DNA from: a virus
DNA: 21,833 nt
Virus record (IMG/VR): IMGVR_UViG_3300032053_000603
Coordinates: 1-21,833 of that record
Direction: 5' to 3' (one strand)
The notes below the pieces were generated by a model. The model was not told the DNA's origin, did not search any database, and worked only from the letters and a program-made list of their open reading frames with translations. Positions 1 to 21,833 of this stretch are shown one piece after another. Each line of letters starts with the position of its first letter. Position 1 is the stretch's first letter. A program made the position numbers and the translations under genes.

Positions 1-2
1 CC

Positions 3-128
3 GAATACGATGAGACGGATCTGAAGGACATAGACTGGCTGTACAGCAGGCTGGCGAAGCAGAAGCAGGAAGAGGCTAAGACGGCAAAGCAGGCGATGAC
101 AGGCAAGACGGAATTACCCCTGGAGTAG
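3..128 (+). CDS. C-terminal end of an upstream tail-region protein (partial)
   Basis: An open frame enters from the left edge and ends at TAG 126-128, giving the last 41 residues of a protein whose start lies outside the window. The tail is charged and probably helical: it is rich in Lys, Gln, Glu and Ala (for example LAKQKQEEAKTAKQ) and ends in LPLE. The next gene starts three bases after the stop, so both probably share a transcript. I do not recognise the family from this fragment. Its place just before a tape-measure candidate would fit a tail assembly chaperone or another tail protein, but that is inference from position only. Confidence 0.7.
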   Translation, partial: EYDETDLKDIDWLYSRLAKQKQEEAKTAKQAMTGKTELPLE

Positions 129-2485: not shown

Positions 2486-2486
2486 A

Positions 2487-4782: not shown

Positions 4783-5057
4783 TGGCAACGAAGAAGATAG
4801 CATGCCTGGGAGACCCGGCAAGCCACCCAGGCGTGATCAACACCAGTGGACAGACCGGAATGAATAAGGCAGGAGGAGTGGTGATAGCAGTACAGGGCGC
4901 GACATTTGCTTGTTTGACACCGGGGCACGGGACAACGCCGATAGCTCCTATAACAACGAAGAGCAGGATCGAGAGCAAGCTGATTATAACGGAAGGTGCG
5001 GTTGCAGGGTGCGGTGCAGTAATAGCCCCTCCTCCAAGAAAGGTGCTTGTAGAATGA
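4782..5057 (+). CDS. PAAR-domain spike tip protein
   Basis: A 91-residue protein starting on the last base of the spike stop. It has the three-part PAAR pattern: DPASHPG (residues 11-17), GATFACLTPGHG (39-50) and TEGAVAGCGAVIAPPP (70-85). PAAR proteins cap the gp5/VgrG needle with a small metal-bound cone. The likely ligands here are His15, Cys44, His49 and Cys77. The best-studied PAAR proteins use three His and one Cys, so this one seems to have two of each; ligand choice by eye is uncertain. It is a bare tip with no fused effector domain. Its stop overlaps the next start as ATGA. Confidence 0.88.
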   Translation: MATKKIACLGDPASHPGVINTSGQTGMNKAGGVVIAVQGATFACLTPGHGTTPIAPITTKSRIESKLIITEGAVAGCGAVIAPPPRKVLVE

Positions 5058-5188
5058 GCGGAGACGTAATGACGACTCAGAAGCTGATCGACTACAGTTG
5101 TGCTGGCATCCTTGGGATATTCATTTGTGCATGGGCCATCTCGGTAACATGGATGAACCTGTGGGGCAGAAAGAAAGGCAAGAAGTAA
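5054..5188 (+). CDS. Single-pass membrane microprotein (44 aa)
   Basis: A short frame from ATG 5054 to TAA 5186-5188, joined to the PAAR gene by an ATGA overlap. The same frame is open further upstream inside the PAAR gene, but that extension is just an alternative frame of PAAR, and the coupled ATG is the better start. The N-terminus is polar (MSGDVMTTQK). Residues 16-35 form one hydrophobic segment (CAGILGIFICAWAISVTW), followed by the basic tail WGRKKGKK. This predicts one membrane span with the positive end in the cytoplasm. The next gene begins one base after the stop. I do not recognise a family. A holin-like or virion-membrane role is possible, but nothing in the sequence proves it. 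Confidence 0.7.
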   Translation: MSGDVMTTQKLIDYSCAGILGIFICAWAISVTWMNLWGRKKGKK

Positions 5189-5189
5189 C

Positions 5190-5570
5190 ATGATGCAAGC
5201 AGAAGTATGGTCAGATCTGGATGCAAGGTTCTTGACCGACTCTCAGGGAGCGATCAAGAAGGTGACGAATGTCGATTCGGTCATCACATCTATCGACAAC
5301 ATCTTGGGAACAGCACGGCTGGAGCGGGTGATGCTCCCCGACTTTGCGATCAGGCTAAAGGACATCCTGTTCGAGCCGATGACGGAAGAGTTCATGCAGT
5401 TCCTTTCAGATCAGGTTAAGGCGGCGGTAGAGACCTGGGACGACAGGGTGACTGTCTTGGCCGTAGATGTATGGTTCGACCCAGACAAAAACTTTGTAGA
5501 GTTCCGTCTGGAGTTCGCCATAAAAAGCTTTCAGAATATATTTACCTACACAAAGAGAGTAAACTTCTAA
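5190..5570 (+). CDS. Baseplate wedge protein, gp25/TssE-like
   Basis: A 126-residue protein of the gp25-like lysozyme-like fold family (also TssE in type VI secretion). Residues 38-64 carry the family core: ILGTARLERVMLPDFA, then LFEPM. This is the usual I(L)xTxxGERxxxPxFG...LFEP pattern, with the first Gly of GER replaced by Leu. Two ATG codons are adjacent (5190 and 5193) and either could be used. The protein joins the inner wedge of the baseplate to the sheath, and the next gene encodes its usual partner, the gp6/J-like wedge. Size and position are normal for the family. Confidence 0.88.
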   Translation: MMQAEVWSDLDARFLTDSQGAIKKVTNVDSVITSIDNILGTARLERVMLPDFAIRLKDILFEPMTEEFMQFLSDQVKAAVETWDDRVTVLAVDVWFDPDKNFVEFRLEFAIKSFQNIFTYTKRVNF

Positions 5571-5580
5571 GGGGGATGAG

Positions 5581-7413
5581 ATGTCGACACTAACGCCACT
5601 TGACTATGCAAATTACGACTTTGATACGCTGACACAGCAGCTCGTAAACAGGCTAAAGGCCAACCCGGACTCACCGTGGAAGGACACCTACCGATCGTCA
5701 ACAGGGCAGATGCTGATAGAGCTGTATGCGTACATAGCGAACCTTGTTCTGTACTACATCGAACGCCGGGCAGAAGAGTCCTACATCGAGACGGCACAGC
5801 TAAAGTCAAGCGTGGTCAACCTTGTCAGGCTCGTTGGATACATTCCAACCAGAGCCGTGTCATCTACAGGCCAGCTTCAGTTCTCAAAGAATACGGCGTG
5901 GGCGGTAGATATCACGATCCCACAGTACACCGAATGCCGAACCAACGCAGGCATGAAGTATCTGACCAACGAGCAGAAGATCATACAGGCGGGGCTTGGT
6001 GTGGGTGATCCTGTAGACGTTCAAGGCATACAAGGATCTATAGTGCAAGTGACGTTCTCATCGAACGGAGCAACAGCGCCAGCGCAGTCGTACACCATAA
6101 GCGACACACAGATAGAGAACGACAGCTTCCCCGGCCTCATCGATCCTGATACGACGTTGGGCGTGTTCGTCAATGGCACACAGTGGCATAGGGTAAGCTC
6201 GTTCACGTCATCGACGGCTGACTCTCAGCACTACATGATACGGGCAGAGCTGGATGATACGGTATCAGTGCTATTTGGGAACAACCAGTTCGGCAAGGCG
6301 CCTGGAGTGGGAGACCAGATAATAGTCAAGTACATCAGGTCGGAAGGTGCATCCGGCAATGTGTTTGAGGCAGGCAAGATCATCAGCATATATTCCCCTT
6401 TGTACGACGCGAACAACGTCCTCGTGACAAGCAAGGTATCAGTAACCAATGCGAGCCCGAATGGACTATTCACCGGCGGTGCTGATTCGGAAAGCATAGA
6501 TGAGATAAGAGAGAACGCCCCGAATGTTTTCAAGACCGGTGATCGTGCGGTGACAAAATCGGACTGCATCTCCATACTCGAAAACATACCCGGGATAGCC
6601 AATGCGAACGTGTGGGGTGAGCAGGAGGAGTATCCTGCAGGGGGCGCCCCTGCAAGCGCAATGAATGCTGTTAAGATTGTCACCATATTCTCCAACTTTA
6701 CAGAGCCGACGCCAAACTTTAAGACCACGGTAATAAATCCCATCCTTACAACCAAGGCCACGCTCACGGTAAAGTTTGAGTACACATCTCCCAAGGTCAT
6801 CGAGATCGTGCCGACAGCAACAGTGCGGATCCATCAGGGCTATACGATATCCGCGGCAGAGCAGAATATCAACACCGTGCTGCAGGAGAACTTTGTGCTG
6901 GGGACGACAACAAGGCTGGGGCAATCGATAAGAGTGTCCCAGATCGTGCAGGCCATCAACTCGCTGGCAGAGGTGGCATACTTACACATGGAGCTTGTGG
7001 CGAGGAGCGAAAACCTGGCTAACTACGATGTGCACCATGACTTTGGATGCATACTCCTGGCAAATCCCATACAGACGGGTACGGTCAATGTGTATGTGGG
7101 GCAATCGGATGACGTGGCACTGTTGGTAGGAACGGATGACGGTGCAGGAACATTCACTCCCACAGTTCCAAATCCGCTTCCTCCAGGATTTCAGTTCCTT
7201 GGCGGTGAGGTGCAGTACAACGCAGGGCCGAACCCGATAGGATACTGTGGGTTGGATATGCTGAACCACTTGCTTCCGCCAGGAATGTTCATATGGGTTA
7301 AATATCTTCAGGACAATACCTCGATCGGATTCACGGGGGATATTATCGTGGACAAGGACGAGGTCTGCAGGCTGTGGGAGGATCAAGGCGACCTAACAAT
7401 CGACTTTGAATAA
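5581..7413 (+). CDS. Baseplate wedge protein, gp6/gpJ-like
   Basis: A 610-residue protein preceded by GGGGGATGAG. Residues 40-92 have the N-terminal helix pair of J-like proteins (TGQMLIELYAYIANL then YIETAQ, LVGYIP). At about residue 299 is the hallmark GGADSESIDEIRENAP, followed by AVTKSDCISILENIPGI, which matches the Baseplate_J family. In T4 the homologue gp6 forms the ring that holds the wedges together; in P2 and Mu the shorter gpJ/gp47 do the same. At 610 residues it is nearer the size of T4 gp6 than gpJ. The C-terminal 110 residues (from about 500) are beta-rich and look like an added module. It pairs with the gp25-like gene just upstream. Confidence 0.9.
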   Translation: MSTLTPLDYANYDFDTLTQQLVNRLKANPDSPWKDTYRSSTGQMLIELYAYIANLVLYYIERRAEESYIETAQLKSSVVNLVRLVGYIPTRAVSSTGQLQFSKNTAWAVDITIPQYTECRTNAGMKYLTNEQKIIQAGLGVGDPVDVQGIQGSIVQVTFSSNGATAPAQSYTISDTQIENDSFPGLIDPDTTLGVFVNGTQWHRVSSFTSSTADSQHYMIRAELDDTVSVLFGNNQFGKAPGVGDQIIVKYIRSEGASGNVFEAGKIISIYSPLYDANNVLVTSKVSVTNASPNGLFTGGADSESIDEIRENAPNVFKTGDRAVTKSDCISILENIPGIANANVWGEQEEYPAGGAPASAMNAVKIVTIFSNFTEPTPNFKTTVINPILTTKATLTVKFEYTSPKVIEIVPTATVRIHQGYTISAAEQNINTVLQENFVLGTTTRLGQSIRVSQIVQAINSLAEVAYLHMELVARSENLANYDVHHDFGCILLANPIQTGTVNVYVGQSDDVALLVGTDDGAGTFTPTVPNPLPPGFQFLGGEVQYNAGPNPIGYCGLDMLNHLLPPGMFIWVKYLQDNTSIGFTGDIIVDKDEVCRLWEDQGDLTIDFE

Positions 7414-7424
7414 AGGGGGATACA

Positions 7425-7934
7425 ATGATAGGCACAAAGAAAGGGTACAAAGGAGTATGGCGCATAGAGCACCGTGACAGGAACGGGAGGCTTTTGTGGT
7501 CAGAGGACAAAGAGAATGCGCTCACCAATCAGGGCGAGAATAATATCCTGAACGTGTACTTCAGGAACCTGGGAGCGCCCGCCACAGGGTTCTTCGTGGG
7601 GATGTGCAACGGATCGATGGACGTGGGAAGCACGCTTGCCACAGTGCCGAATGAGCCTGTAGGTAATGGGTATGCCCGTCAAGCCGTCCTCAGGGACGAA
7701 TCGGACTCAGGATGGCCTGTAATTGAGCTACATGAGGGAAATTACAGGGCTATATCGAAGCAGGTACAGTTCATGGCTGCTGGAGGCACTATTGGGCCTG
7801 TGAACATCATATTTCTGTGTACAGTGATTACAGGAATCAGTGGACTGCTGACGGCATTCGTCAACCTGTCCCTGCCAAGAACATTGCTGGATGGAGACAG
7901 CTTACTGGCGAGGTATACAGTAACGCTACAATAA
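7425..7934 (+). CDS. Small virion structural protein
   Basis: A 169-residue protein with GGGGGATACA before its ATG. It begins with an edge strand and turn (WRIEHRDRNGRLLWSEDKENALTNQG, where the core is the DRNGRLL turn) and ends with LLDGDSLLARYTVTLQ. The middle contains GMCNG, then ATVPNEP and YARQAVLRD. This layout (short strand, Asx-Gly turn, N-x-G-x-N-I helix, 'GTG-like' loop, Y-x-R, final GDxLxxxYxxxL strand) is common in small tail or appendage proteins of uncultured phages. It loosely resembles the 158-residue protein at 11945-12421. Position between gpJ-like and gpI-like genes suggests a baseplate-attached protein. Exact function unknown. Confidence 0.6.
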   Translation: MIGTKKGYKGVWRIEHRDRNGRLLWSEDKENALTNQGENNILNVYFRNLGAPATGFFVGMCNGSMDVGSTLATVPNEPVGNGYARQAVLRDESDSGWPVIELHEGNYRAISKQVQFMAAGGTIGPVNIIFLCTVITGISGLLTAFVNLSLPRTLLDGDSLLARYTVTLQ

Positions 7935-7937
7935 ACT

Positions 7938-10052
7938 ATGACATACACCGAAGAACTAGAATTTACGATACAATCGACGCAGCAACTGCTGAATAGGCCG
8001 CAGTCTGCCGTGGGCGAGTTCATAGCCTTTGGCGACGGCTTGAACCCGGCGTTCGATCACGATACGACATATCTTGAATTACGGCATGGCTTCGTCACGG
8101 TAACGGATGGGGCGGAGACGTATCAGGATGACGGCAACGGCAACCTCGTAAATGTTGCCGTGCCTATCGTGGCAGAGCTGTTCGCGGTAGGACGATCCCC
8201 AGGTGATCCGCTTATAAACTCACCGACATTCACAAATACGATAATCAATCCTGGGATACAGCCTGGATCGATCATGATAACGGACGGCGTTGAAACATTC
8301 TTTGATACAGGAATCGGGCCTCTGGAAGGAGCGCTGGGTGGATTTGGATTTGCTGACTATGCATCAGGCACGATAACCATCACGTTTACATACATACCTC
8401 CTCCCGGCACACAGATACTTATCAACTATACCAGCATAGCATCGGGATTGCATGGCACGGTGAACTATGTGTCAGGGCACATACACGTAGTGTTTACCAA
8501 TCCGCCCTTACTGGGCGCGATCATAACAACAAGCTACCAGTGGCAGCAGTATTATCCGACAGCGATATACGTTTTCAATCTGGGCATACTGATGACATCG
8601 ATAACGGACGTCGATGTCGTCGCATCGAAGTATGTGGATCTGATACAGCTCGTGCCTGAGAAGTTCAGGGGCGCCGAGATCCTGCAGGAATATCTGCGGG
8701 CAGTAGGTCTATACACAGGCATATGGCTGACCAAGATCGACAACATGCTGAAGCTGTTGGATATATATTCTGTGAGCGACCAGTTTAAGGAGACGATACC
8801 AGCACATAACCTGGTGTTCGATGAAGAGTACATGTCGAGGCTGGGAGCGCTCATAGGGCTGACGATCACCAAAGGAAGGAACCCTGGAGAGACGGAAGAG
8901 CAGTATAGGGACAGGTTACGACGCCAGCTCATCAATGCGATCGACTGGTATAAGATCAAAGGTACATATCAGGCACTACAGGACGCAATATACATCACGA
9001 ACCAGGCCATAGCAGTGAAAGACCTGTACACCAACGACTACATCAACTTCATTCAGGAGGACTGGTTCATAGCAAGCTATCCAGGGGAGAACCCACCGGG
9101 GCTGGATGCTACATACTACAAGTCACCGCACTTCGGATTGCAGATCGTTCTGAACCAGGTATTTATGCAGCCACCGGCTAACCCATACCTGTGGAAGGGT
9201 GATGACAAGTTTGCGAACGTGAGGGCGCTGGTTGAGGAGATACGGCCTGTCAACACCGTGCCGACATTCATCATTGAGATGGACGCACAGTGCAATGAGG
9301 ACGGCACCTTATATACAGTATCAGCAACACAGGTTAAGTCCATAAGACTATATGAGCCGTGGGTATTCACCAGGCAGTACTTTGATCAGGATCACCTGGG
9401 GCCGGGGCAGACATTCCACTTCGACAACGACATGATCATACCCATAACGGCAGAGACGTATGGGACTGGTGATGGAGGAACCGTAACCTTCATTCACACA
9501 ATGGACAACGTGGGATTCAAGATTAGAGAGGGATTCGTCACCGTAACGGATGGGGTAGAGATATTCATAGATAACGGGGACGGTACGCTCACAGGCAACC
9601 TTGGTGGTGTAGGAACTATTAACTATACGAATGGAATATGTAATGTAACATTCCAAGGCGCTCCTGCTAAGGGCGTGGGCATAACGACCGACTATCAATA
9701 CTTCTTCGGATCAGGAAGGTTCTTTGACTTCTCCCAGTTGGCATTTTTGGAATCTGTGACAGTATGGAAGCTGGGAACAGGCAACAAGGGAGTATCACCG
9801 GATACACCCGGATGGAACCTCGTAACCATAACACATACAGGAACGATGGCGTTCCCCCAAACGATACGAATCCTTCCCGATAGGACAGAGTACGAAGTAG
9901 TAGTGAATCAATCAATAGTAGAAGCGGGCGGATTCTCCGAGCTTGGGCTATACCTAAGCGACGGTACAACGTTGGTGATAGGATGCACATTTCCTGACAT
10001 ATTCAAAATAGCTGGCGTCGAACTGAGGATCATACTAAGGCTACTAAAATAA
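7938..10052 (+). CDS. gpI-like baseplate protein with inserted beta modules
   Basis: A 704-residue protein. Residues about 232-360 match the P2 gpI/tail-protein-I family: YVDLIQLVPEKF, then VGLYTGIWLTKIDNML, then EEYMSRLGALIGL, then EEQYRDRLRRQLINAI, then KGTYQALQDAI. This domain attaches fibres to the J-like wedge. Around it are related beta modules recognised by FVTVTDGxE...GxVNYxxGxxxVxF: one at 511-589, one at 89-168, and one split into 33-72 and 170-203, so the second lies inside the first. The C-terminus (600-704) is another beta domain. P2 gpI is about 176 residues, so this is a greatly enlarged version. The modules may contact a fibre or a receptor; that is inference. Confidence 0.8.
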   Translation: MTYTEELEFTIQSTQQLLNRPQSAVGEFIAFGDGLNPAFDHDTTYLELRHGFVTVTDGAETYQDDGNGNLVNVAVPIVAELFAVGRSPGDPLINSPTFTNTIINPGIQPGSIMITDGVETFFDTGIGPLEGALGGFGFADYASGTITITFTYIPPPGTQILINYTSIASGLHGTVNYVSGHIHVVFTNPPLLGAIITTSYQWQQYYPTAIYVFNLGILMTSITDVDVVASKYVDLIQLVPEKFRGAEILQEYLRAVGLYTGIWLTKIDNMLKLLDIYSVSDQFKETIPAHNLVFDEEYMSRLGALIGLTITKGRNPGETEEQYRDRLRRQLINAIDWYKIKGTYQALQDAIYITNQAIAVKDLYTNDYINFIQEDWFIASYPGENPPGLDATYYKSPHFGLQIVLNQVFMQPPANPYLWKGDDKFANVRALVEEIRPVNTVPTFIIEMDAQCNEDGTLYTVSATQVKSIRLYEPWVFTRQYFDQDHLGPGQTFHFDNDMIIPITAETYGTGDGGTVTFIHTMDNVGFKIREGFVTVTDGVEIFIDNGDGTLTGNLGGVGTINYTNGICNVTFQGAPAKGVGITTDYQYFFGSGRFFDFSQLAFLESVTVWKLGTGNKGVSPDTPGWNLVTITHTGTMAFPQTIRILPDRTEYEVVVNQSIVEAGGFSELGLYLSDGTTLVIGCTFPDIFKIAGVELRIILRLLK
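8034..8546 (+). repeat. Nested beta modules in the gpI-like protein
   Basis: Residues 33-72 and 170-203 of the gpI-like protein together align with the uninterrupted module at residues 511-589 (9468-9704): FVTVTDGAETYQDD and LHGTVNYVSGHIHVVF match FVTVTDGVEIFIDN and GVGTINYTNGICNVTF. Between the two halves sits a complete copy (residues 89-168) with SIMITDGVETFFD and FADYASGTITITF. The bases encoding FVTVTDG are almost identical at 8091-8111 and 9534-9554, which suggests a fairly recent copy event. Confidence 0.7.
9468..9704 (+). repeat. Third, uninterrupted copy of the FVTVTDG beta module
   Basis: Residues 511-589 of the gpI-like protein hold a full module beginning GDGGTVTFIH and running through FVTVTDGVEIFIDN, GDGTLTGNLGG and GTINYTNGICNVTF to ITTDYQYF. 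It is the reference for recognising the split copy near the N-terminus. Confidence 0.75.
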
Positions 10053-10064
10053 CGGAGGAACAAG

Positions 10065-11291
10065 ATGGCTACCCAAACTATAAGAGTAAGATTCTTCGAC
10101 CCGGTTGAAGCGCACGTGGTCAACGAACGATTCCAGGATGTCCGAGTGGTGGGCATATATTCGGGTGGGTATCTTTCGAGAGTCAACGACACCCAGGTAA
10201 ACGTGTCACAGCTCGTGTGTGAGATAAGCGACGGGCAGTACCAGATTAGAATGATGACTGACGGGCCTCAATTGGTAAACGTAACGAGTGGCACTCAGTA
10301 CGTTATACTACGATGGTTGTACAATGGCACAGTATCAAACGATGTGCAATTCCTTGCTGTTGATTCGGGCGGCCTTCAGGTAAATGATGTTATCATAGGG
10401 TTCTGTCATTACACAGGGCCAGCGCTGGATAGTTTTTTATATGACAAAAGAACCACTCCTGATACACACGACCTGTTCCTAAAGGTAGAGCCGACTGACC
10501 CCACAACAATGAGCATTAAGGTAAGACCGGGCAGAGTTAACTATGGAGTGCTTAATTACTCCGTTCCTGACACTGACTTGCTGCTTGCAATGCCTGCTGC
10601 CAACCCAAGGATTGATGTGGTGTATATTGATACGGACGGTGTGCCTAAGGTCAAGACAGGGGATGAAGCAGCCAGCCCTATCGCAAAACCCTTTCAAGGA
10701 AAGATCGCGCTGGCAAAGATAGCCATGTCTCCTGGAATGGGCACGATAACAAAAGAGGATATTACTGATGTAAGGTCATTTATCACTGGCGGCATAGTTC
10801 CCGGTCAAGTGGCTGGAGATGTGCTATACTTTAATGGAGACCCACTTGTAAACGCCTGGGACAGGCTGCCAATCGGCACAGCAGGACAACGACTGCGGGT
10901 AAATGTAGGAGCAACGGGGCTGGAGTATGTTGATGTATACAGATTGCTGGTATGGTACGTTGATGGCAATCTGGTCATAGGAAACAGCAAGAGCGTCACG
11001 CTACGGATGCCATTCAACGGAGCATTCGTGCGCGCCGATGCATATGTTGTATCAGCTCCGTTGGGCACTCCAATCAAAGTGCAGATCAACAAGAACGGTG
11101 GGAACATCTGGTTCCCCGCACCAGATCACAGGCTCACAATATTAGCAGGTGTGACGAACGGAAACACCCTGTCATTTGACACGATCACGTTCGTAGCAGG
11201 CGACGTGTTCACGATGGACTTGAACCAGGTAGGAAGCACAACAGCAGGCATGAGCCTGACTGTTCTGCTAACGGTCAAGGAGACTCCGTAA
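10065..11291 (+). CDS. Tail fibre-like protein
   Basis: A 408-residue protein with GGAGGAACAAG before its ATG. After a beta N-terminus, residues about 148-235 form a conserved phage-fibre block: MSIKVRPGRVNYG, then NPRIDVVYIDTDG, then GKIALAKIAM. Near residue 249 is VAGDVLYFNGD, then WDRLPIGTAGQRLRV, a stalk motif frequent in tail fibres. The last 120 residues are beta-rich (RLLVWYVDGNLVIG, TLRMPFNGAFVRADAY, KVQINKNGGNIW) and look like a jelly-roll tip. It directly follows the gpI-like protein, the usual place for a fibre. The family is recognised from these motifs. The receptor is unknown. Confidence 0.78.
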   Translation: MATQTIRVRFFDPVEAHVVNERFQDVRVVGIYSGGYLSRVNDTQVNVSQLVCEISDGQYQIRMMTDGPQLVNVTSGTQYVILRWLYNGTVSNDVQFLAVDSGGLQVNDVIIGFCHYTGPALDSFLYDKRTTPDTHDLFLKVEPTDPTTMSIKVRPGRVNYGVLNYSVPDTDLLLAMPAANPRIDVVYIDTDGVPKVKTGDEAASPIAKPFQGKIALAKIAMSPGMGTITKEDITDVRSFITGGIVPGQVAGDVLYFNGDPLVNAWDRLPIGTAGQRLRVNVGATGLEYVDVYRLLVWYVDGNLVIGNSKSVTLRMPFNGAFVRADAYVVSAPLGTPIKVQINKNGGNIWFPAPDHRLTILAGVTNGNTLSFDTITFVAGDVFTMDLNQVGSTTAGMSLTVLLTVKETP

Positions 11292-11737
11292 TGGCGCAAA
11301 GCGTATTACTGTTTAGCTTTCCCGCGCAGTCACAGAGCGCAAGGAATGTGGCTTCAATAACACAGACACAGAACTTCCTTACACCAATAGACGTAACAAA
11401 GGTGGTATATAGTGGGACTGCATACGCATCTACGGATGGATACAGCTCGTTCTACAACAAAGGATGGTCAGTTACCATTGAGATATATTCCGATGGGGCG
11501 TGGGTGCTTGTTGATAGCTGTGGTGGGACGTCAAGCGGCGGCGGCAGCCAGGGGTGCACTGTCGGTGGCACAAAAGAAGGTACAGTAGCGGTGCCTGTGC
11601 TATATCCGAACGTGACAGCAGCACGGTGGACAGCGACCGCGCATGCATACTCTGACCACGACCAATATGTAGCAGTGACATTAAGTGCATATCAACTGTT
11701 CGTTCTATCAGTTAGCGATACGGGGTACATAGTATGA
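11291..11737 (+). CDS. Small beta-rich virion protein, Gly/Ser-rich
   Basis: A 148-residue protein whose ATG shares one base with the fibre stop. Residues 45-75 form strands (SVTIEIYSDGAWVLVDS), followed by a Gly/Ser/Cys loop (CGGTSSGGGSQGCTVGG) and more strands (RWTATAHAYSDHDQYVAVTL). The two Cys flanking the glycine run could form a disulfide. I do not recognise a family. Being coupled to the fibre gene, it may form a tip, cap or decoration of the fibre. The stop overlaps the next small gene as ATGA. Confidence 0.6.
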   Translation: MAQSVLLFSFPAQSQSARNVASITQTQNFLTPIDVTKVVYSGTAYASTDGYSSFYNKGWSVTIEIYSDGAWVLVDSCGGTSSGGGSQGCTVGGTKEGTVAVPVLYPNVTAARWTATAHAYSDHDQYVAVTLSAYQLFVLSVSDTGYIV

Positions 11738-11944: not shown

Positions 11945-12421
11945 ATGCGTAAAGGGGCGAAGGATGCAATAGCGGTTAGAGGATTTGCCCGATTTCAGCT
12001 TGTAGACAGTGAGACCGGCAAGCCTCTCGGCAGGCCCTCGAAGTGGTACAGGAACACCGTTGTGAACCTCGGTTTTGCATATTATGTGTGCGGATCTATC
12101 GGAGCGATCTCGAACTCCACGCAGGTCACATACATGGCAATCGGAACCGGGACAGCACCGGGTGCGGCCGATACTTCGCTGCAGGGCGAAGTCGGTGCAA
12201 GGGCGACGACCAACAATTCTGTCATGTCCAGCAAGACGCTTCAGACGACAACCCAGTTCGCTGGGTCAACTCTGACGGCGTTCCCTGTGACAATACAGAA
12301 CGTGGCGTTAGTTAACACCAGCTCGGGCGGAACCATTCTGTCTGGCACAACCTATGCCACATCACAGTGGAATAGCAACCAGAACGTGAATGCAACCTAC
12401 CAGCTGAGGTTCAGCGCATAA
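11945..12421 (+). CDS. Small virion structural protein
   Basis: A 158-residue protein with a strong Shine-Dalgarno sequence. It begins with GFARFQLVDSETGKPLG, then NTVVNLGFAYYVCGSI, then YMAIGTGTAPGAADTSLQGEV, and ends in beta strands (NVNATYQLRFSA). The sequence of N-x-V-x-N-x-G followed by an IGTGxxxxxxxDTxL loop is a recurring pattern in small tail-associated proteins of phages. It resembles the 169-residue protein at 7425-7934 in layout, so the two may be distant paralogues. A role in the fibre or baseplate periphery is inferred from the neighbours only. Confidence 0.62.
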   Translation: MRKGAKDAIAVRGFARFQLVDSETGKPLGRPSKWYRNTVVNLGFAYYVCGSIGAISNSTQVTYMAIGTGTAPGAADTSLQGEVGARATTNNSVMSSKTLQTTTQFAGSTLTAFPVTIQNVALVNTSSGGTILSGTTYATSQWNSNQNVNATYQLRFSA

Positions 12422-12471: not shown

Positions 12472-12993
12472 ATGAAAAGGAAGAAGGGCATATACAGAGT
12501 GCCAAAGGGACAATTCATCAACCTCGATGTAGGTTGTGGGTTGAATAAGACCAAAGGGTATGTGGGTATGGACATTCGAAAGGTCAAGGGCGTTGACATC
12601 GTCCATGACGTGGAAAGTGTTCCATATCCACTATCCGATGGCTGCTGCAACATGATTCTGATGAGCCATCTGATAGAGCACATCTGCCCGAAGCGCATGA
12701 TACACGTTATGAATGAGCTTTGGCGGATCATGAAGGTGGGAGGCCACCTTTACATATCGACTCCTTATGCAGGATCGCGAGGATGTTGGCAGGATCCGAC
12801 GCACTGTGGGCACTGGAACGAGACGACACCGTTGTACTTCGACCCGTATCCGTATGTACTGAAGGGCGAGCGGAGCATCCTGTATGACATCTACAAAGCA
12901 AAGCCATGGCAGTTGAGAGAGGACTCCTGGTTCGCCACCGGCAACCTGCAGATCATATATGAGAAGAGGAGGAACGATGAAAAGGGCAAATAG
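12472..12993 (+). CDS. SAM-dependent methyltransferase (class I, Methyltransf_11-like)
   Basis: A 173-residue protein. Residues 18-23 are LDVGCG, the glycine-rich SAM-binding motif I. GMD at 32-34 lies where the acidic residue that binds the ribose is expected, and DVESVPYPLSDG (46-57) plus HLIEH (66-70) match the later motifs of class I enzymes acting on small or sugar substrates. The lid is short, so it is a minimal enzyme. The next gene, a glycosyltransferase, overlaps it by 17 bases, so the two products probably act in one pathway, such as making and capping a sugar on a virion protein or host surface. The substrate cannot be read from the sequence. Confidence 0.88.
   Translation: MKRKKGIYRVPKGQFINLDVGCGLNKTKGYVGMDIRKVKGVDIVHDVESVPYPLSDGCCNMILMSHLIEHICPKRMIHVMNELWRIMKVGGHLYISTPYAGSRGCWQDPTHCGHWNETTPLYFDPYPYVLKGERSILYDIYKAKPWQLREDSWFATGNLQIIYEKRRNDEKGK
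12966..12972 (+). promoter_or_regulatory. Shine-Dalgarno that decides the glycosyltransferase start
   Basis: GAGGAGG lies four bases before ATG 12977. A further in-frame ATG exists at 12959 but has no such site and would add six residues (MRRGGT), so 12977 is the preferred start. The site lies inside the 3' end of the methyltransferase gene. Confidence 0.7.
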
Positions 12994-13888
12994 ATATCAG
13001 AGACTGGTAGCATTGACCAAAGAGGTCAAGAACAACGTGCCCGCCATGCGGAAGATATGCATAGCAGTACCAACGACAGGAAGCATGCGGATTGAGTGGA
13101 TGATGGGCAGGTACGGATGCATCATGCCGATCAACTGGTCGCATGGAGAGATATTGCAGTACTTCGACCAGTTCAGCCCGATAGGATATGTCGTGGCCGA
13201 CGCAAGGAACATCTGCGTTGAGTACTCGATTGCGCAGAAGTTCGAGTGGACGCTGTTCATAGACCACGACACAGTCATACCTCCGACGACGTTCCTTTTG
13301 CTCGGGGAGTGGATGCGCGCAATGACGCACCCGATCGTGGGGGGTCTCTACTATTGCAAAGGAAGCCACCCGGAGCCACTGGTGTTCAGAGGCAGGGGCA
13401 CCGGATATTATGATAGGTGGAAGTTCGGCGATGCTGTAGAGGTCGATGCACTGCCGATGGGATGCACGCTCATTCACAACTCGATCCTGAAACATCTGTA
13501 CGACAACAGCGAAGTGTATACCGTGGGGTCAATATACGGCCCCATAGTCGTGAGGCGCGTGTTCCAGACACCGAAGATATCGTGGCAGGATCCTGAGAAT
13601 GGCAGGTACAACTCGTACGCCGCCACGGAAGATCTCCCACTCTTCGATAGGATCATGAAAGACAAAGTCCTGGAGAAGCTGGGATGGAAGAAGCTGGCGA
13701 AGAAGCAGTATCCGTTCATCTGTGACACGCGGATCTTCTGCCAGCACATAGACGAGGCCGGGATACAGTACCCCGGGCAGATGTACAAGAACACAAAGCA
13801 GTATACAGGCAGTGACCTGCAGAAGATAGAAAGGAAAGGGGTATTCAATGTCGGACAATCAAAAGGGAGCCAATACTCCGGAGCTTGA
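12977..13888 (+). CDS. GT-A family glycosyltransferase (GT2-like)
   Basis: A 303-residue protein from the ATG served by GAGGAGG. It starts KICIAVPTTGS (from about residue 21), the first strand and loop of GT-A enzymes. VVADARNICVEYS follows, the ARN motif of many phage-encoded glycosyltransferases. FIDHDTVIPP at 94-103 contains D96-H97-D98, the DxD motif that holds the metal and nucleotide sugar. GLYYCKG and MGCTLIHNSIL form the acceptor half. The gene overlaps the methyltransferase by 17 bases and the next gene by 41 bases, so all three are co-translated. It may glycosylate a fibre protein or alter host glycans; donor and acceptor are unknown. Confidence 0.85.
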   Translation: MKRANRYQRLVALTKEVKNNVPAMRKICIAVPTTGSMRIEWMMGRYGCIMPINWSHGEILQYFDQFSPIGYVVADARNICVEYSIAQKFEWTLFIDHDTVIPPTTFLLLGEWMRAMTHPIVGGLYYCKGSHPEPLVFRGRGTGYYDRWKFGDAVEVDALPMGCTLIHNSILKHLYDNSEVYTVGSIYGPIVVRRVFQTPKISWQDPENGRYNSYAATEDLPLFDRIMKDKVLEKLGWKKLAKKQYPFICDTRIFCQHIDEAGIQYPGQMYKNTKQYTGSDLQKIERKGVFNVGQSKGSQYSGA

Positions 13889-14120
13889 GACGTTGAGCGT
13901 CAATGTAGGCGAGCACGTTCAGGCCAGCGAAGCTGTGGGAGGAGCGGATAAGTCTCCGTTTCAGAATCCGATGCACGACCCAAGGGTAGCAGGCATAGCC
14001 ATGGCCACCACGATCGAAGAGGTCATACGGTTGGCGCCATTGGCTATTCAAAAGAGCCGTGAAGAGAAGAAGCCTGCGATCATCACGGTGATAGGGTTTC
14101 TGGAGCCTCCTAAGAAGTAA
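13848..14120 (+). CDS. Small protein of unknown function (90 aa)
   Basis: A 90-residue protein with GGAAAGGGG upstream of its ATG, starting inside the glycosyltransferase gene. The N-terminal half is polar and probably disordered (ELETLSVNVGEHVQASE). The C-terminal half is helical then hydrophobic (TTIEEVIRLAPLAIQKSREEKKPAIITVIGFL) in two parts. No family recognised. It sits between the glycosyltransferase and the large acidic repeat protein, and could be a partner or chaperone of either; this is inference from position. Confidence 0.6.
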   Translation: MSDNQKGANTPELETLSVNVGEHVQASEAVGGADKSPFQNPMHDPRVAGIAMATTIEEVIRLAPLAIQKSREEKKPAIITVIGFLEPPKK

Positions 14121-14128
14121 GAGGGAAG

Positions 14129-17100
14129 ATGGCGTATACATATTCTGACTCAGGGCTACAATACGGCGGAGCGGGTTCTGATTACGACGGCAACCCGATT
14201 ACGTTATTGGTCGATGTTTACGACTCGATAACGGCATCGGAACAGGTGTCGATGGACATGCCGATTGGCACCAACGTCTTTGATACGGTCACGATCACGG
14301 AGGCAGTATCAGAAAGTTTGGATGTCCTCAATGCCGATGTCTCCGATTCGATAGCGATCGTGGAGGATCTAATAGGCGAAGTGGCATTGCCTGCCGACGT
14401 CTTCGATACGATCACGATTACGGAGCAAGTAGACATAAATCTGGACGTCCTCAACACAGACATCTTCGATACGATATCGATACTGGAAGAGATCACCACC
14501 GAGCTGGACGTCCTTAATATAACACCCGGTGAAGACATCCTTATCACCGAGGATGTCGGAGTGATGGATTTTCCCCTCAACGTCGGCCCTCTCACGGAAG
14601 ATATACTTATCACAGAAGCCGTCACCATATACCCCGACCTACAAGAGCTCAGTGTATTTGATACCATCACGATCACGGAGAGCGCGACAACCCTCCTGGA
14701 CGTGCTGTGCGTATTCGTGTACGATAGTGTGCAATATGGTGAGCCGACAGATCTGTATCCAGACCCGCTGTATGCGAGTGCTGTCGATACGATCTCGATT
14801 ATAGAGAACATTACAGAGTCCCTGGATGAGTTGTTTACAGATGTCTTCGATACCATCACGATCACAGAGTACACCGAAGAGTTTACGGACATACTGTATG
14901 CAGATGTCTTCGATACAATCACGATAGCAGAGAGCGCCTCACAGTTCCTGGACGTTCTCAATCCAGACGTGTTCGATGATGTGGCAATCACTGAAGATGA
15001 GACCACGCTACTTACCACGCTCAATGTTAGCGAGTTCGATTCAATAAGTATCGAAGAAGCGCTGACCCTATTCCTCGACGTGCTTAATTCCTCTATATAT
15101 GAGGACGTAGCGATCACCGAAGATGTAGGAGCCCTGGACTTCCCGCTCAACATAGGGCCGATATCCGATACGATAAGTACGACAGAAGTTGTAACGGCAT
15201 ATTTAGATGCACTGTGGACGTCGGTGCAGGACGATGTAACAATAGAAGAATTTGTATCTGATGTTCTGGATGTGCTGTATATATCTGTTGATGATACGGC
15301 AACGATTACAGAAACTGCTGATACGGCTCCCGGCATATTGTTTGTCGATGTATTTGATGCGACAACGATAACAGACCTCGTCACTAACATACGCCTGTCC
15401 GCCCTATTCGCAAGCGCGTTCGACACTGTAACGATAGCAGAGAATATAGATCTGTCACCCGATCCTCTATTTGCAAGCGTAGGCGACGACATAACAATAT
15501 TAGAGGATGTGAGCGTATCACCCGATCCACTTATTACGGGAACGGTATACGACGACATCAACATCACAGAGGATGAGACGACACTCTTGGATGCTCTCAA
15601 TCCAGACGTGTTCGATACGATAACGATCAGCGAGAACGAGACGACGCTCCTGGATGTCCTCACCCCGGACGTGTTCGATACGATAACGATCACAGAGGAC
15701 GAGAGCGTATTCCTCAACGCGCTATTCATAAACGAGTTTGAAGACATACCTATAACCGAGGACGAGACGACGCTCCTGCCAGAGCTCATCATAAGTGCAG
15801 AAGATGATATCAGCACCACAGAGAATACGGATCAATATCTGGACGAGTTGTTTGTGGACGTATTCGATATGGTATCTATATTTGACATTGCGCCGCTCAA
15901 CCCGGATGAGCTGTTCGCAACGATGTTCGAGGACATCCACATCACAGAGTCCGTAGCCGACTACGAGACAGAACTCTTTATAAATGTAGTAGACTTAGAC
16001 ATTATTACGGTCACTGAGAACGAGACCACTTTACTGACAACACTCGTTCCGAGCATGTTTGATACCCTCACGATCACAGAGGACATTACCTTGTTCCTCG
16101 ACGCGCTGTACCTGACCGTAATCGACTCACCTACGATATCCGAATTTGTACAGGCACAGCTCGACGCCCTGTTCGCATCCGTTACAGACGATGTCGCCAT
16201 AACGGAGTTTGCCGACATGCCGCTTGACGTGTTGGCCGTCGATGTGATCGACACCGTATCGATAGCCGAAGCGGCAGGAATGCTGGACTTCCCGCTGTTC
16301 GTAGGGCCGGTATCAGAGAACATAACGATCAGCGAAGTGCCGACCCTGGGCCTCGATGCCCTGTACGAATCGATAGAAGATACGATCATAACGATAGACA
16401 TATTCCTGCCAGACCTGCAGAGCAACATCTTTGCGACTGAGGGGACGAAGCACAGCTATAATGGAAGCCCAGCAACATATAGTGACCCCCACGTAACCTA
16501 CGACGGTGAAGAAGCGACAGTTATTATCATCAGTGAGTTCGTGCAGATGGGGCTGGTATCAACAATATCTGTCGGCGAAGACATCACGATTACAGAGTCA
16601 CTGACCGACTTCGTGGACACGCTGTACCTATCTGTGACCGAAGACATCACGATCACAGAGAATGTCACCAACAACATTCCGTTCATCGCCTTCGGGGTAT
16701 ATGACGACATCACGATCACAGAGGACATTGCAGCAGAGTCGTTTGTAGGCGTGAACACCTCCGAAACCGTCACGATCACAGAGGTCACCGACCTTCAGCT
16801 GGATCAGCTGTTCATAGACGTATCAGAAAATATAACCATCGATGACTACCCACAATTCGGGATAGGCGTCGAGATTCTCTCTGAAGAAGACATAGTGATA
16901 CAAGAGTATGTAAACCTCGCGGTGCCCGTGCGGTTTACCGTATTTGATACAGGCTCCATCGTAGAGGACGTGCTCCTGTACATGGCGATAGGACTGCTAG
17001 CGGAAGATCTGGTCAGCATCACGGAGTTCTTTGACTACAACCAGATATTCGGGATGTCGGCGTTCGACGACATTACCATAACAGAGGACTTCAACTACAC

Positions 17101-17407
17101 CCAAGAGTTTGACATGTTCGCCTTCGACGACGTGACCATAAGTGAGGCGACAGCCGAGGAGATGCCGGACGAGGGCGTGGTGTTCGAAGATATAATGATC
17201 ATCGAAGAAGTGATGATGTTCCTGACCGAGCTGGCAATCCCGCTCGTGTTTGAGAGCATAATCATAGACGACACGTTCACAAGGGAACAGCTGATAATCA
17301 TCAGGGGCATGCGGCGAATGCGTCTGGAATCAAAGATACCCAACCCGAAGTTCAAAACACAGAGCAAGATTGACTACTTTACACACGTTCAAGAAGTGGG
17401 GGTCTAA
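14129..17407 (+). CDS. Large acidic protein of about 48 21-residue repeats
   Basis: A 1092-residue protein with GAGGGA before its ATG. From about residue 25 to 1048 it consists of repeats of about 21 residues, typified by DVFDTITITE followed by DETTLLDVLNP. By eye I count about 48 copies of the DxIxIxE strand. I find only about three Lys/Arg residues in the first 1048, so it is extremely acidic; the last 44 residues are basic (RGMRRMRLESK, PKFKTQSK). Two blocks are separated at about 766-798 by a Tyr-rich linker. The regular strand spacing suggests a beta-solenoid or beta-roll, possibly bound to divalent ions. Position among fibre genes suggests a long virion fibre or adhesin. No family named with confidence. 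Confidence 0.75.
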   Translation: MAYTYSDSGLQYGGAGSDYDGNPITLLVDVYDSITASEQVSMDMPIGTNVFDTVTITEAVSESLDVLNADVSDSIAIVEDLIGEVALPADVFDTITITEQVDINLDVLNTDIFDTISILEEITTELDVLNITPGEDILITEDVGVMDFPLNVGPLTEDILITEAVTIYPDLQELSVFDTITITESATTLLDVLCVFVYDSVQYGEPTDLYPDPLYASAVDTISIIENITESLDELFTDVFDTITITEYTEEFTDILYADVFDTITIAESASQFLDVLNPDVFDDVAITEDETTLLTTLNVSEFDSISIEEALTLFLDVLNSSIYEDVAITEDVGALDFPLNIGPISDTISTTEVVTAYLDALWTSVQDDVTIEEFVSDVLDVLYISVDDTATITETADTAPGILFVDVFDATTITDLVTNIRLSALFASAFDTVTIAENIDLSPDPLFASVGDDITILEDVSVSPDPLITGTVYDDINITEDETTLLDALNPDVFDTITISENETTLLDVLTPDVFDTITITEDESVFLNALFINEFEDIPITEDETTLLPELIISAEDDISTTENTDQYLDELFVDVFDMVSIFDIAPLNPDELFATMFEDIHITESVADYETELFINVVDLDIITVTENETTLLTTLVPSMFDTLTITEDITLFLDALYLTVIDSPTISEFVQAQLDALFASVTDDVAITEFADMPLDVLAVDVIDTVSIAEAAGMLDFPLFVGPVSENITISEVPTLGLDALYESIEDTIITIDIFLPDLQSNIFATEGTKHSYNGSPATYSDPHVTYDGEEATVIIISEFVQMGLVSTISVGEDITITESLTDFVDTLYLSVTEDITITENVTNNIPFIAFGVYDDITITEDIAAESFVGVNTSETVTITEVTDLQLDQLFIDVSENITIDDYPQFGIGVEILSEEDIVIQEYVNLAVPVRFTVFDTGSIVEDVLLYMAIGLLAEDLVSITEFFDYNQIFGMSAFDDITITEDFNYTQEFDMFAFDDVTISEATAEEMPDEGVVFEDIMIIEEVMMFLTELAIPLVFESIIIDDTFTREQLIIIRGMRRMRLESKIPNPKFKTQSKIDYFTHVQEVGV
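14203..17272 (+). repeat. 63-base tandem repeat array in the acidic protein
   Basis: The array has a 63-base period that keeps the reading frame. Adjacent copies are closest at about 15602-15727, where the stretch coding for DVFDTITI recurs 63 bases apart with only one or two changes. Copies elsewhere have drifted, and a few are interrupted (for example near 14730 and at 16425-16520). In-frame repeats of this kind can shrink or grow by recombination. Confidence 0.85.
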
Positions 17408-17707
17408 ATGGCACTACCAGAGGAAAGACACTATGTAGGAGAGGTCGGAACAGAGATGATCATCGACTGCGGACGCGATATCTCGACGGCGGCAGATATG
17501 CGACTGCTCGTGAAGAAGCCTGACGATACAGTGGTCGAGTGGATCGCGGGGCAGTACCTTTCAAACAAGAACGCCATCAGGTACGTCACAGAGGCTGGGG
17601 ACTTCGACCAGAGTGGTGAGTACGAGATGCAATCAAAGATAGCCATAGGCGGATTTATAGGGCTCGGGAAAACTGTTAAGTTTATAGTATACGACCGGTT
17701 TGCGTAA
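17408..17707 (+). CDS. Small Ig-like appendage protein
   Basis: A 99-residue protein that begins immediately after the stop of the repeat protein. It reads YVGEVGTEMIIDCGRDIS, then ADMRLLVKKPDDTVVEW, then IRYVTEAGDFDQSGEYEMQ, and ends VKFIVYDRF. This is a recurrent small beta-sandwich in phages of uncultured hosts: a GxxGTxxxxDCGxDIS start, a KKPDxTxxEW hairpin, and an AGDFDxxGxYxxQ strand. Such proteins usually lie next to fibre genes and probably bind a fibre or host surface. The fold is inferred from the pattern; the partner is unknown. Confidence 0.65.
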   Translation: MALPEERHYVGEVGTEMIIDCGRDISTAADMRLLVKKPDDTVVEWIAGQYLSNKNAIRYVTEAGDFDQSGEYEMQSKIAIGGFIGLGKTVKFIVYDRFA

Positions 17708-18458: not shown

Positions 18459-18992
18459 ATGGCACTCGCACTTCCTATAGGTACAGACCTGTTGAGCAAT
18501 CCAGATCATAGTCTACTGCACAGGGTATTCGCGGTAGACCTGCTCGCACCCGAGCAATCTGTCATTGTCAACTCTTCGGGGACACTACAGGCAAAAGTAG
18601 GCATAGCAATCAGAGACAGTAGCACCAACTGGTACACGACATTCCAAGGAGGCGCACAGGCAGGGAATCTTACCTATACGCTTCCAACAGGATATCCTGC
18701 AGTAACCGGATATGTACTGTCCGGCACGACAGGCGGTGTGCTGAGCTGGATCGCGGCGACCGGCACAGGACTGTCATATACCACAAGCTTCACGAGCGCA
18801 AGCTTGGCGGCGGGGATACTTACTGTGACGCATGCGCTTGGCAGGAAGTATGTCGTGTATAAGATATACGACAACAACGATCTGGAGATCATACCAGACG
18901 GCGCAACAGCGACGGACACGAATACTCTTACGGTAGACCTGACGTCTTTCAGCCCGATAACGGGAACTTGGAATATCAGAGTCGTGGCGTAA
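18459..18992 (+). CDS. Tail fibre-like protein with receptor-tip domain
   Basis: A 177-residue protein with AGGGAAAGGGG before its ATG. The N-terminus has NPDHSLLHRVFAVD, an attachment-type segment also seen in phage fibre proteins. The middle TYTLPTGYPAVTGYVLSG then GGVLSW is the common fibre stalk pattern. The last 65 residues (FTSASLAAGILTVTHALG, VVYKIYDNNDLEIIPDG, VDLTSFSPITGTWNIRVVA) form a recurrent fibre-tip beta domain. It is short for a fibre, so it may be a side tip or adaptor. The large LamG protein follows 20 bases later. Confidence 0.72.
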   Translation: MALALPIGTDLLSNPDHSLLHRVFAVDLLAPEQSVIVNSSGTLQAKVGIAIRDSSTNWYTTFQGGAQAGNLTYTLPTGYPAVTGYVLSGTTGGVLSWIAATGTGLSYTTSFTSASLAAGILTVTHALGRKYVVYKIYDNNDLEIIPDGATATDTNTLTVDLTSFSPITGTWNIRVVA

Positions 18993-19012
18993 GCCGTCGA
19001 AAGGGGCTTAAA

Positions 19013-21833
19013 ATGAGAACAGGTATAAAGGAAGTAAAAGGCACACTCAAGGGAGGCAACTACACGCTAGTCGCCTCCAAATATATAGGTGACCCCGACG
19101 GGTATACCAAGCTTCTTACGCATTTCGACGGCCAGAACGCAGGTACTGCTATAGTTGACAGCGGAGATTCTGGGTACGTAGTTACTCAGGTAGGCACAGC
19201 GTCGTTGTCTACAGCCTTCCGTAAGATTGGTGGTGGATCCTGTTTCTTTGATGGCAATAGCGATTGGTTGACTGTCCCTGATAGTACCGACTGGTATTTT
19301 GGAACGATGGACTTTACACTAGACTTGTGGGTGAGGTTTAACAGTGTATCTCAATCCGTTCAAACCTTAATAGCACAATTTGTTGACGGGAGTAACTTTT
19401 GGGAACTTGATTATAACTTTGGGGGTGCGTCCGAAGATAAGCTGACATTTTATGCTTATTCGGGGGGAGAGTTAGGACATTTTGTAACAACTAGCACAAT
19501 GGGTTTGCTAGTGAATACTTGGTATCATATAGCCTTAGTACGTTCGGGTTCTACTTGCTATATGTTTCTGAACGGAACATCTCTTGCGGTAACACAAACC
19601 CAGCCGTTTGGAACGATGCCAGACCTGGCAGCTACGTTACGTGTTGGTAGTAATGGAGGCACTCAATATTCAAGTACGTACATAGACGAACTCCGTATCT
19701 CCAACACAGCTCGATGGACCCAGAACTTCACTCCACAGACAACCCCGTACACATCCGATTCCTACACCAAGCTCCTCCTCCACATGGAACCTCACGATGT
19801 CTGTGGCAACATCCCCACCTTCAACTCCACGGCCAAGCTATCTTCAAATCCAATTAAGAAGTTCGGAGCTGGATCTTTGCTCCTAGATGGCAACTCTGAC
19901 TATGTTACATACCCTGATTCAGCAGACTGGGCTTGGGGAACAGGAGCATTTACAGTCGATTTTTGGTATAAGTGTGGAGGTTCAGTTGGAGGATATATTG
20001 CTTTCTTTAACCAAGGCGAGAGCAATGTAAAGTATTCCGCTCTTTATTGGACTGGAAATACCTTACGCTATCAATGTTATAATAATGCAAATGTTATATA
20101 TGTATCGTGGTCTATAACTGAAGCAGTTTTAATTGGTAGTGCCACAGGTACTTGGAAGCATTTGGCAATAGTGAGAGATGGAACTGGAGCCGACTACTCA
20201 TTAAAATGTTACATAGACGGGGTATCCTTAGGAAATGGAACTTTAACTGGAGGTGCTTGGAATGCAGCACTTATAGATTGGGCAGGTGTATTTGAAGTAG
20301 GTGGGATGCAAGCTAACTCATTTTATTTCAATGGCTATATTGATGAGTTCCGTATTGTCAAAGGTACAGCTAAATGGACAGCGAACTTCACCCCATCTAC
20401 GACAGCATATACTGGCTCAGACATACCGACCAACGGGCTATTGCTCCATCTTGATTATGATTATCTTGATAGCTCTATTGCGGCTCACGGCGCAGGCACG
20501 GGGGTTGGTACAGCTCAAGTCACGACAATCAGCAGGATAGGTGCTGGCTCACTGCTCCTCGATGGTAACAGCGACTATGTAACCTATCCAGATAGTGCTG
20601 ACTGGAATTTAGGAAATACATTCACTGTAGATACTTGGATTAAGGTTAATGGTGCCACTGGAGATTTACAACAAATATGTGGGCAATTTCCAAATAATCA
20701 AAATGCTACTGTCTTATTGCAGGTTTATCCTGAAGGTAATGTTATATATGCTGGTTTTTATGTAGCTTCAGCCTGGACATTACGATTTTCAGCCCCTTAC
20801 ACGCCTCGATATGGGGTGTGGCAACATATAGCACTGGTAAGAGTTGATGGCGGTAATGCGGACACTTCTTGGAGAATCTTTCTTGATGGAGTGCAACTTG
20901 CATTAACAAAGACTCTTGGAAACTGGAACGCCGCTTTCCCGGTTCTTACAGCTTCTATGTATGTTGGTATGTCGCAAAACGCTTATTATTTTAACGGATA
21001 CATTGACGAACTCCGAATCTCTAAGGATACAGCCCGTTGGACTGCTGGTTTTACACCGCAAACTACAGCATACACTGCAGATACTTATACCAAGCTCCTC
21101 TGCCACTTCGACTACGATTACATGGACTCATCCACCGTAGGCAACCCCACAGGCACCGGGTACGGAGCAGTAGCCACCTCTGCAGTGCAGAGCAAGTTCG
21201 GTGGTGGATCGCTGCTGTTGATTAGTGCAAACAGTCAGTATGTAACATACCCGTCTACCACAGACTTTGGTTTTGGAACGGGGGATTTTACAATAGACTT
21301 TTGGATATATTTTAACACAGTCAACACCATACAAGTGCTGATGGATTCCACTACTAACGACAGAACTCTGATTATGGTGCATACAAACGGTAACTTATAT
21401 CTCGATCTTGTAGGAGTTGGTTACGGTTCAGCGTGGGTACCGTCAGCAACGACGTGGTACCATTTAGCGTTCACAAGATCTGGAACCAACCTAAGGTTCT
21501 TTGTCAATGGTGTCCAAGTCGGAGTAACTAAAACATCAAGCGATAACATTGCATCACAAGGAATTTATATAGGCAGACAAAACTCAGGAACCCCATATTA
21601 TACAAATGGCTACATCGACGAACTCCGAATCTCCAAGGGCATAGCCCGTTGGACATCCAACTTCACCCCACCAACCTCAGCTTACACCACCGATTGGTAC
21701 ACCAAGCTCCTCTGCCACTTCGACACCGATTTCTCAGACGCCTCTGGGATCTCGCACGGAGCAGGTACTGGAGTTGCAACAGCTCAAGTAACCTCACCAT
21801 CGAGGTTTGGATCGACATCGCTGCTTCTCAATG
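19013..21833 (+). CDS. Giant LamG/concanavalin-A-like repeat protein (partial)
   Basis: An open frame starts at ATG 19013 (AAAGGGG upstream) and continues without a stop to the right edge, giving at least 940 residues. After a 30-residue start it repeats a module of 204-222 residues. Each begins near TKLLCHFD, has GGSLLLDGNSDYVTYPDS, a strand FTVDFW, WxHxALVR, a YFNGYIDELRIS strand and WTANFTPxTTAYT. This is the Laminin_G_3/concanavalin-A-like fold, common in adhesins that bind sugars. Four modules are complete and a fifth has begun. The cores are AT-richer than their borders. It is probably a receptor-binding fibre or surface adhesin; the ligand is unknown. Confidence 0.85.
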   Translation, partial: MRTGIKEVKGTLKGGNYTLVASKYIGDPDGYTKLLTHFDGQNAGTAIVDSGDSGYVVTQVGTASLSTAFRKIGGGSCFFDGNSDWLTVPDSTDWYFGTMDFTLDLWVRFNSVSQSVQTLIAQFVDGSNFWELDYNFGGASEDKLTFYAYSGGELGHFVTTSTMGLLVNTWYHIALVRSGSTCYMFLNGTSLAVTQTQPFGTMPDLAATLRVGSNGGTQYSSTYIDELRISNTARWTQNFTPQTTPYTSDSYTKLLLHMEPHDVCGNIPTFNSTAKLSSNPIKKFGAGSLLLDGNSDYVTYPDSADWAWGTGAFTVDFWYKCGGSVGGYIAFFNQGESNVKYSALYWTGNTLRYQCYNNANVIYVSWSITEAVLIGSATGTWKHLAIVRDGTGADYSLKCYIDGVSLGNGTLTGGAWNAALIDWAGVFEVGGMQANSFYFNGYIDEFRIVKGTAKWTANFTPSTTAYTGSDIPTNGLLLHLDYDYLDSSIAAHGAGTGVGTAQVTTISRIGAGSLLLDGNSDYVTYPDSADWNLGNTFTVDTWIKVNGATGDLQQICGQFPNNQNATVLLQVYPEGNVIYAGFYVASAWTLRFSAPYTPRYGVWQHIALVRVDGGNADTSWRIFLDGVQLALTKTLGNWNAAFPVLTASMYVGMSQNAYYFNGYIDELRISKDTARWTAGFTPQTTAYTADTYTKLLCHFDYDYMDSSTVGNPTGTGYGAVATSAVQSKFGGGSLLLISANSQYVTYPSTTDFGFGTGDFTIDFWIYFNTVNTIQVLMDSTTNDRTLIMVHTNGNLYLDLVGVGYGSAWVPSATTWYHLAFTRSGTNLRFFVNGVQVGVTKTSSDNIASQGIYIGRQNSGTPYYTNGYIDELRISKGIARWTSNFTPPTSAYTTDWYTKLLCHFDTDFSDASGISHGAGTGVATAQVTSPSRFGSTSLLLN
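19109..21833 (+). repeat. LamG module repeats with conserved boundaries
   Basis: The module starts (first Lys of TKLL or its equivalent) fall at 19109, 19769, 20435, 21092 and 21704, giving periods of 660, 666, 657 and 612 bases. The last two starts share at least 20 identical bases, and the YIDELRIS-coding end of each module is also highly similar. The middle of each module varies much more. Confidence 0.85.

Follow-up and report, generated by a model that had tools for sequence, protein, structure and literature searches.

Long arrays of VxDxITVxE repeats encoded beside methyltransferase and glycosyltransferase-like genes in uncultured phages

Phage tail proteins made of short beta repeats are already known, and the stretch of DNA analyzed here raises the question of whether a further, very long example belongs among them. 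The window (the whole stretch of 21,833 nucleotides, which is also the entire IMG/VR record IMGVR_UViG_3300032053_000603) encodes T4-like baseplate parts (a gp5-like OB protein and baseplate J), a LamG protein and, among fibre genes, a highly acidic protein composed largely of units of about 21 residues.

Architecture and composition of the repeat protein

The repeat gene and its parts are as follows:

14120..14128, plus strand: possible ribosome-binding site, purine-rich AGAGGGAAG
14129..17407, plus strand: repeat protein gene, 1092 aa, ATG open reading frame
14129..14212, plus strand: N-terminal 28 aa with an aromatic/acidic triplet (YSDSGLQYGGAGSDYDG)
14213..17308, plus strand: 48 tandem units, each 20-23 aa long, with the consensus [SD]VFD[TD]ITITE-x(5)-LDxLxx (profile)
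16433..16504, plus strand: 24 residues that interrupt the array (aa 769-792), similar to the N-terminal motif
17273..17407, plus strand: the last 44 aa, basic (pI 10.5), with the stop codon

An earlier note on this DNA had described a reading frame of 1092 residues with about 48 copies of a repeat, and both statements hold: 44 units are picked up by a 10-residue profile, which detects 2.9 on average and at most 8 in 200 shuffled sequences, and four weaker ones, in register with the others, are added (aa 196, 748, 793, 917). At lag 21 the residues show an autocorrelation of 0.240; the highest value among 500 shuffled sequences is 0.128. The period had been called a strict 63 bases; 21 residues is indeed the modal spacing, but the strictness is not borne out, as spacings of 20, 21, 22 and 23 residues occur in 7, 26, 6 and 1 cases, respectively, the mean pairwise identity of units is 36% at the protein level and 47% at the DNA level, and Tandem Repeats Finder reports just 2.3 copies in the window (15563-15704). 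Since the closest pair of 21-residue units shows 73% DNA identity, the gene has, judging from its units, undergone no recent expansion or slippage, and we infer that selection maintains the array.

The array is broken only once, by the interruption at aa 769-792, in which YSDPHVTYDG is similar to the N-terminal YSDSGLQYGGAGSDYDG; a similar aromatic/acidic motif starts the repeat protein of contig L054. A second type of unit, DFPLNVGP-like and 22 aa long, is found at aa 132, 322 and 705 (190 and 383 residues apart), and the similarity between units is also maximal at offset 9, hinting at an old block duplication.

The whole protein has a pI of 4.05, with 21.3% D+E and 1.1% K+R. The count of about three basic residues ahead of a basic tail of 44 residues, given in the earlier note, proved accurate: K/R residues upstream of the tail are limited to R422, K774 and R935, and the tail holds nine. 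The strong acidity is unique to this protein within the window, its neighbors having 3-17% D+E and 3-15% K+R. Long antisense reading frames (e.g. 14218-15819, minus strand) were rejected as genes and attributed to the repeat composition, of which they are a by-product.

A family of VxDxITVxE repeats in uncultured phages

The repeat protein of the window shows no match in Pfam, PHROG, NCBIfam or PDB above the curated cut-off (or with E below 0.001 where none exists), in agreement with the earlier impression that it belongs to no characterised family; yet it has relatives, which form an unnamed family. The whole-protein query gave no match among viral contigs and phages because the patterns landed on variable stretches. 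Using a consensus query and spaced acidic motif patterns, we recovered related repeats, with the consensus VxD[ST][IV][TS][IV][TS]E, from about 50 further IMG/VR contigs. When every locus was surveyed with a profile, 59 non-identical open frames had three or more spaced units; they lie at 52 loci on about 50 contigs. One library family of unknown function, phrog_12240, matches the repeats of the relative L058 (7e-11), not the window protein. No repeat relative was detected in cultured-phage records, where the low-complexity filter may hide some, and scans of genome contigs gave no confirmed relative and therefore no prophage host. The literature searched contains no description of a VxDxITVxE repeat, and neither the repeat nor the gene cassette presented below appears to have been described before in the papers and libraries covered.

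We define the VxDxITVxE family by units that are 20-22 aa long and carry D/E at position 4, aliphatic residues at 6 and 8, S/T at 7 and E/D at 10; the window protein has such units together with linked methyltransferase and glycosyltransferase-like genes upstream (12472-13888). Across the family, D/E occupies position 4 in 98% of units and E/D position 10 in nearly all, only D4 and E10 being near-invariant, S/T is found at positions 5, 7 and 9 in 60, 79 and 63%, and positions 6 and 8 are hydrophobic, mostly aliphatic, in 93-97%; this conservation is partly circular, as the units were selected by a profile that favours those residues. Relatives (e.g. L006/L065, L049/L067, L008, L059 and L058) resemble the window protein in having 20-22-residue VxDxI[TS][IV][TS]E units, as many as about 60 in one protein, close to the same cassette, but many are less acidic, and LamG or other domains are often part of the same chain. 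All are unnamed and uncharacterised. L006 and L049 share a second unit type, which is DxVVEVGVV-like there and DFPLNVGP-like in the window.

The D+E content of the units varies between contigs from 12 to 26%, which makes the heavy charge a trait of the lineage and not a feature of the family. A basic C-terminal tail was likewise rejected as a family feature, being net positive in nine of 43 short C-termini. The C-termini of the L069, L079, L083, L117 and L128 proteins carry tandem Trp-centred motifs of about 10-13 residues (e.g. TTTWTDVSPSATTWEDVSP); motifs of this Trp type end many repeat proteins, and Tyr-based counterparts occur in the window N-terminus, the window interruption and L054.

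The near-invariant carboxylates raise the alternative of a calcium-dependent solenoid, in which stacked D4 and E10 would bind cations, leaving the chain loose in the cell and turning it into a rigid fibre outside, as in RTX proteins. The same carboxylates on successive coils would repel each other unless bridged, and their frequencies quoted above agree with such a role, with the bias of the profile-based selection. We nevertheless consider this reading decidedly unlikely: Asp and Glu at strand ends may equally cap turns, and the units of L046, L053 and L055, with about 12-13% D+E, have little acidity beyond positions 4 and 10. RTX Ca2+-binding repeats also place acidic residues at fixed positions of a short beta repeat, but the window repeat is 20-22 instead of 9 residues long, contains 3% glycine and lacks GGxGxDxLx. 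RTX membership was rejected, as these nonapeptides are absent from the unit consensus and composition.

The gene cassette around the repeat gene

The repeat gene is flanked by the following genes:

11945..12421, plus strand: opening gene of the cassette, for a gp80-like fibre protein (its family match is weak)
12472..12993, plus strand: SAM-dependent methyltransferase of the cassette (Methyltransf_11, phrog_6636)
12977..13888, plus strand: glycosyltransferase-like cassette protein that contains an IDHD motif; its identity to the counterparts in the cassettes of L046, L053, L002 and L006 is 37-56%
13848..14120, plus strand: small open reading frame of 90 aa between the glycosyltransferase-like and repeat genes, of unknown function (reading-frame listing and family searches)
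17408..17707, plus strand: 99-aa protein directly downstream of the repeat gene, no family match

The order gp80-like fibre, methyltransferase, glycosyltransferase-like and repeat protein recurs in many contigs, and in several contigs besides the window small proteins of about 100 aa come after the repeat genes. The window has two gp80-like fibre proteins, at 7425-7934 and 11945-12421, only the former scoring above the Pfam cut-off (31.7 bits versus 27).

The linkage was counted from both ends. The window glycosyltransferase-like sequence matched no relatives when used alone as a query; a five-row alignment revealed 75 loci with relatives of 25-62% identity. Of these, 34 have sufficient flank, and in 26 a repeat protein is encoded between -3.5 and +7 kb; a few of these loci lie on closely related contigs, so the 34 are not all independent. 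The controls gave 0 of 75 loci for composition-shuffled proteins and 0 of 17 for baseplate-J loci. Starting from the repeats, with the glycosyltransferase absent from the query, nine loci offered 1.4 kb or more of upstream sequence; both enzymes are strongly matched in seven, weakly matched in one and not matched in one. An initial count by a strict regular expression (18 of 48) is superseded by the profile-based one.

As the assignment of the second enzyme relies on the IDHD motif, a PHROG glycosyltransferase match (5e-4) and weak hints from Pfam and PDB, we label it "glycosyltransferase-like". Together with the methyltransferase, it would modify the repeat protein or a neighboring fibre. The near-constant linkage of the three genes suggests a glycan-coated fibre, in which the glycosyltransferase would O-glycosylate the outward Thr/Ser of positions 5, 7 and 9 (about 100-140 sites), frequently S/T in the family as described above, and the methyltransferase would methylate the sugars; the resulting long glycan brush would shield the virion or mimic the host surface. 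A precedent is offered by Mycobacterium phages, in which virion glycosylation is known to act as a shield (cited in PMC12619734). We regard this reading as rather unlikely, since exposed beta strands favour S/T in any case, the substrate could instead be the gp80-like fibre or the LamG protein, and the glycosyltransferase was assigned from weak matches. A broader version, in which a beta-repeat fibre with Thr/Ser ladders is a widespread virion module among uncultured tailed phages and the dedicated substrate of both co-encoded enzymes, and in which the repeat number determines how long the methylated glycan brush on the virion is, appears unlikely.

Association with the phage tail

Downstream of the cassette lies a gene for a possible host-binding protein:

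18968..21832, plus strand: LamG protein, truncated by the contig end, in which four ConA-like lectin domains are recognised (domain matches)

In L006 (L065), repeats and LamG domains occur on one polypeptide. Other members are joined to tail domains: the L144 repeat protein ends in DUF2460 (38.1 bits; cut-off 30.4), a domain of phage tail proteins, and the repeat protein of L055 starts with a domain that matches "minor tail proteins" of Streptomyces phages. In L003 the repeats lie upstream of a hub-like region (weak match, E 0.002).

Contig L028/L142 (IMGVR_UViG_3300032046_000289 for L142) is 99.7% identical to the window over 10.5 kb and extends upstream of it. Window and contig together encode the gp5-like OB protein, baseplate J, sheath, tube and LamG protein. 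A second repeat gene of this contig, truncated at its 5' end (L142:6280-7872, minus strand), specifies 530 aa or more and is followed by three small genes, the tail sheath and the tube protein. This second protein, too, has a short basic C-terminal stretch (SRVRRVIDLIRNP). By blastn, L028 aligns to window positions 1-112 and 807-11348, with a gap between them, suggesting a divergent or replaced stretch (112-807) within the gene at 132-1556.

The repeats thus occur in genes of the tail region or on one chain with tail domains, as expected of a virion tail protein. The cassette, the fusions and the second copy near the sheath in the same phage population are, like the array and the widespread family, direct observations, and they support a tail-associated role in adsorption or as a fibre; the suggestion of a virion fibre made in the earlier note is strengthened by them and by the gene context. 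The host-surface decoy offered there as another option gains no support from these observations and is not contradicted by them. From these features we infer that the protein is present in the virion, elongated and involved in adsorption. Its exact location may differ between phages, as the repeat gene lies in the fibre region in the window and beside terminase- or portal-type genes in other contigs.

One cultured phage offers a comparison. The "minor tail protein" gp11 of Streptomyces phage Galactica (MT316461, L135:5001-8312) is homologous to the L055 repeat protein in its N-terminal domain, and its C-terminal half consists of repeats of about 20 residues where the relatives from uncultured phages carry acidic ones. 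Unlike the window repeats, those of Galactica are basic (pI 12), Ala/Gly-rich and devoid of the VxDxITVxE motif, and no glycosyltransferase-like gene was found in the Galactica stretch examined. By its sequence gp11 would therefore be an analogue of the repeat protein, homology of the repeats being unsupported; this single cultured example suggests that a long array is wanted at that position and that its charge is adjustable.

Predicted fold and proposed function

AlphaFold monomer runs with 29 and 81 aligned rows gave low-confidence models (pLDDT 55.4 and 56.7, pTM 0.42 and 0.47), both composed almost entirely of strands and turns, with two to three strands per unit. Foldseek found no match to them below E 0.001; the weak matches are mostly beta-solenoids. 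The profile search of PDB pointed to the Hap autotransporter (E 0.017), and the alternation of hydrophobic and polar residues is kept over 81 six-unit stretches. The solenoid proposed earlier is therefore plausible: the beta-rich character was reproduced, but with low confidence and no significant structural match. Single-chain beta-solenoids (ice-binding proteins, hemolysin A, SufB/SufD, the Hap autotransporter) likewise have coils of about 20 residues and short strands; they are weak neighbors in structure and sequence, with no significant match and no defining sequence feature in common. An ice-binding function, brought up by the TxT ladder and by ice-binding proteins among the weak Foldseek matches, was set aside in the absence of a significant match.

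A need for three chains would also explain the low confidence of monomer models, which persists even with 81 aligned rows, and an intertwined trimeric beta fibre resembling phage shafts would suit the fibre-type gene context. We consider it possible, if somewhat unlikely, given that the weak Foldseek neighbors are mostly single-chain solenoids. Low model confidence and high acidity would also be expected of a disordered linker or a low-complexity sequence grown by slippage. This we hold to be very improbable, because the inward hydrophobic residues at positions 6 and 8 are kept in 93-97% of units in about 50 contigs despite the 36% identity of the units, and the best unit-to-unit DNA identity, 73%, argues against recent slippage.

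The explanation we favour, and consider fairly probable, is that the protein is a structural component associated with the tail of a contractile-tailed phage, its long chain of beta units forming a shaft or spacer of the adsorption apparatus. About 48 two- to three-stranded units would be chained into an extended structure, which probably presents or spaces host-binding modules such as LamG domains. Within each unit, I6-T-I-T-E10 would form a strand with I6 and I8 directed inward and Thr/Ser 5, 7 and 9 outward; the carboxylates of D4 and E10 would stack at the strand ends, where cations may be needed.

In the collections searched, the repeat is common in environmental phages and has neither a family model nor a cultured example, and many proteins of the adsorption region consequently go unannotated. 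The cassette of methyltransferase, glycosyltransferase-like and repeat genes provides a testable handle on the targets of the enzymes and on a sugar coat of the tail, and the repeat profile, combined with the cassette, would let annotators spot the adsorption region of such phages.
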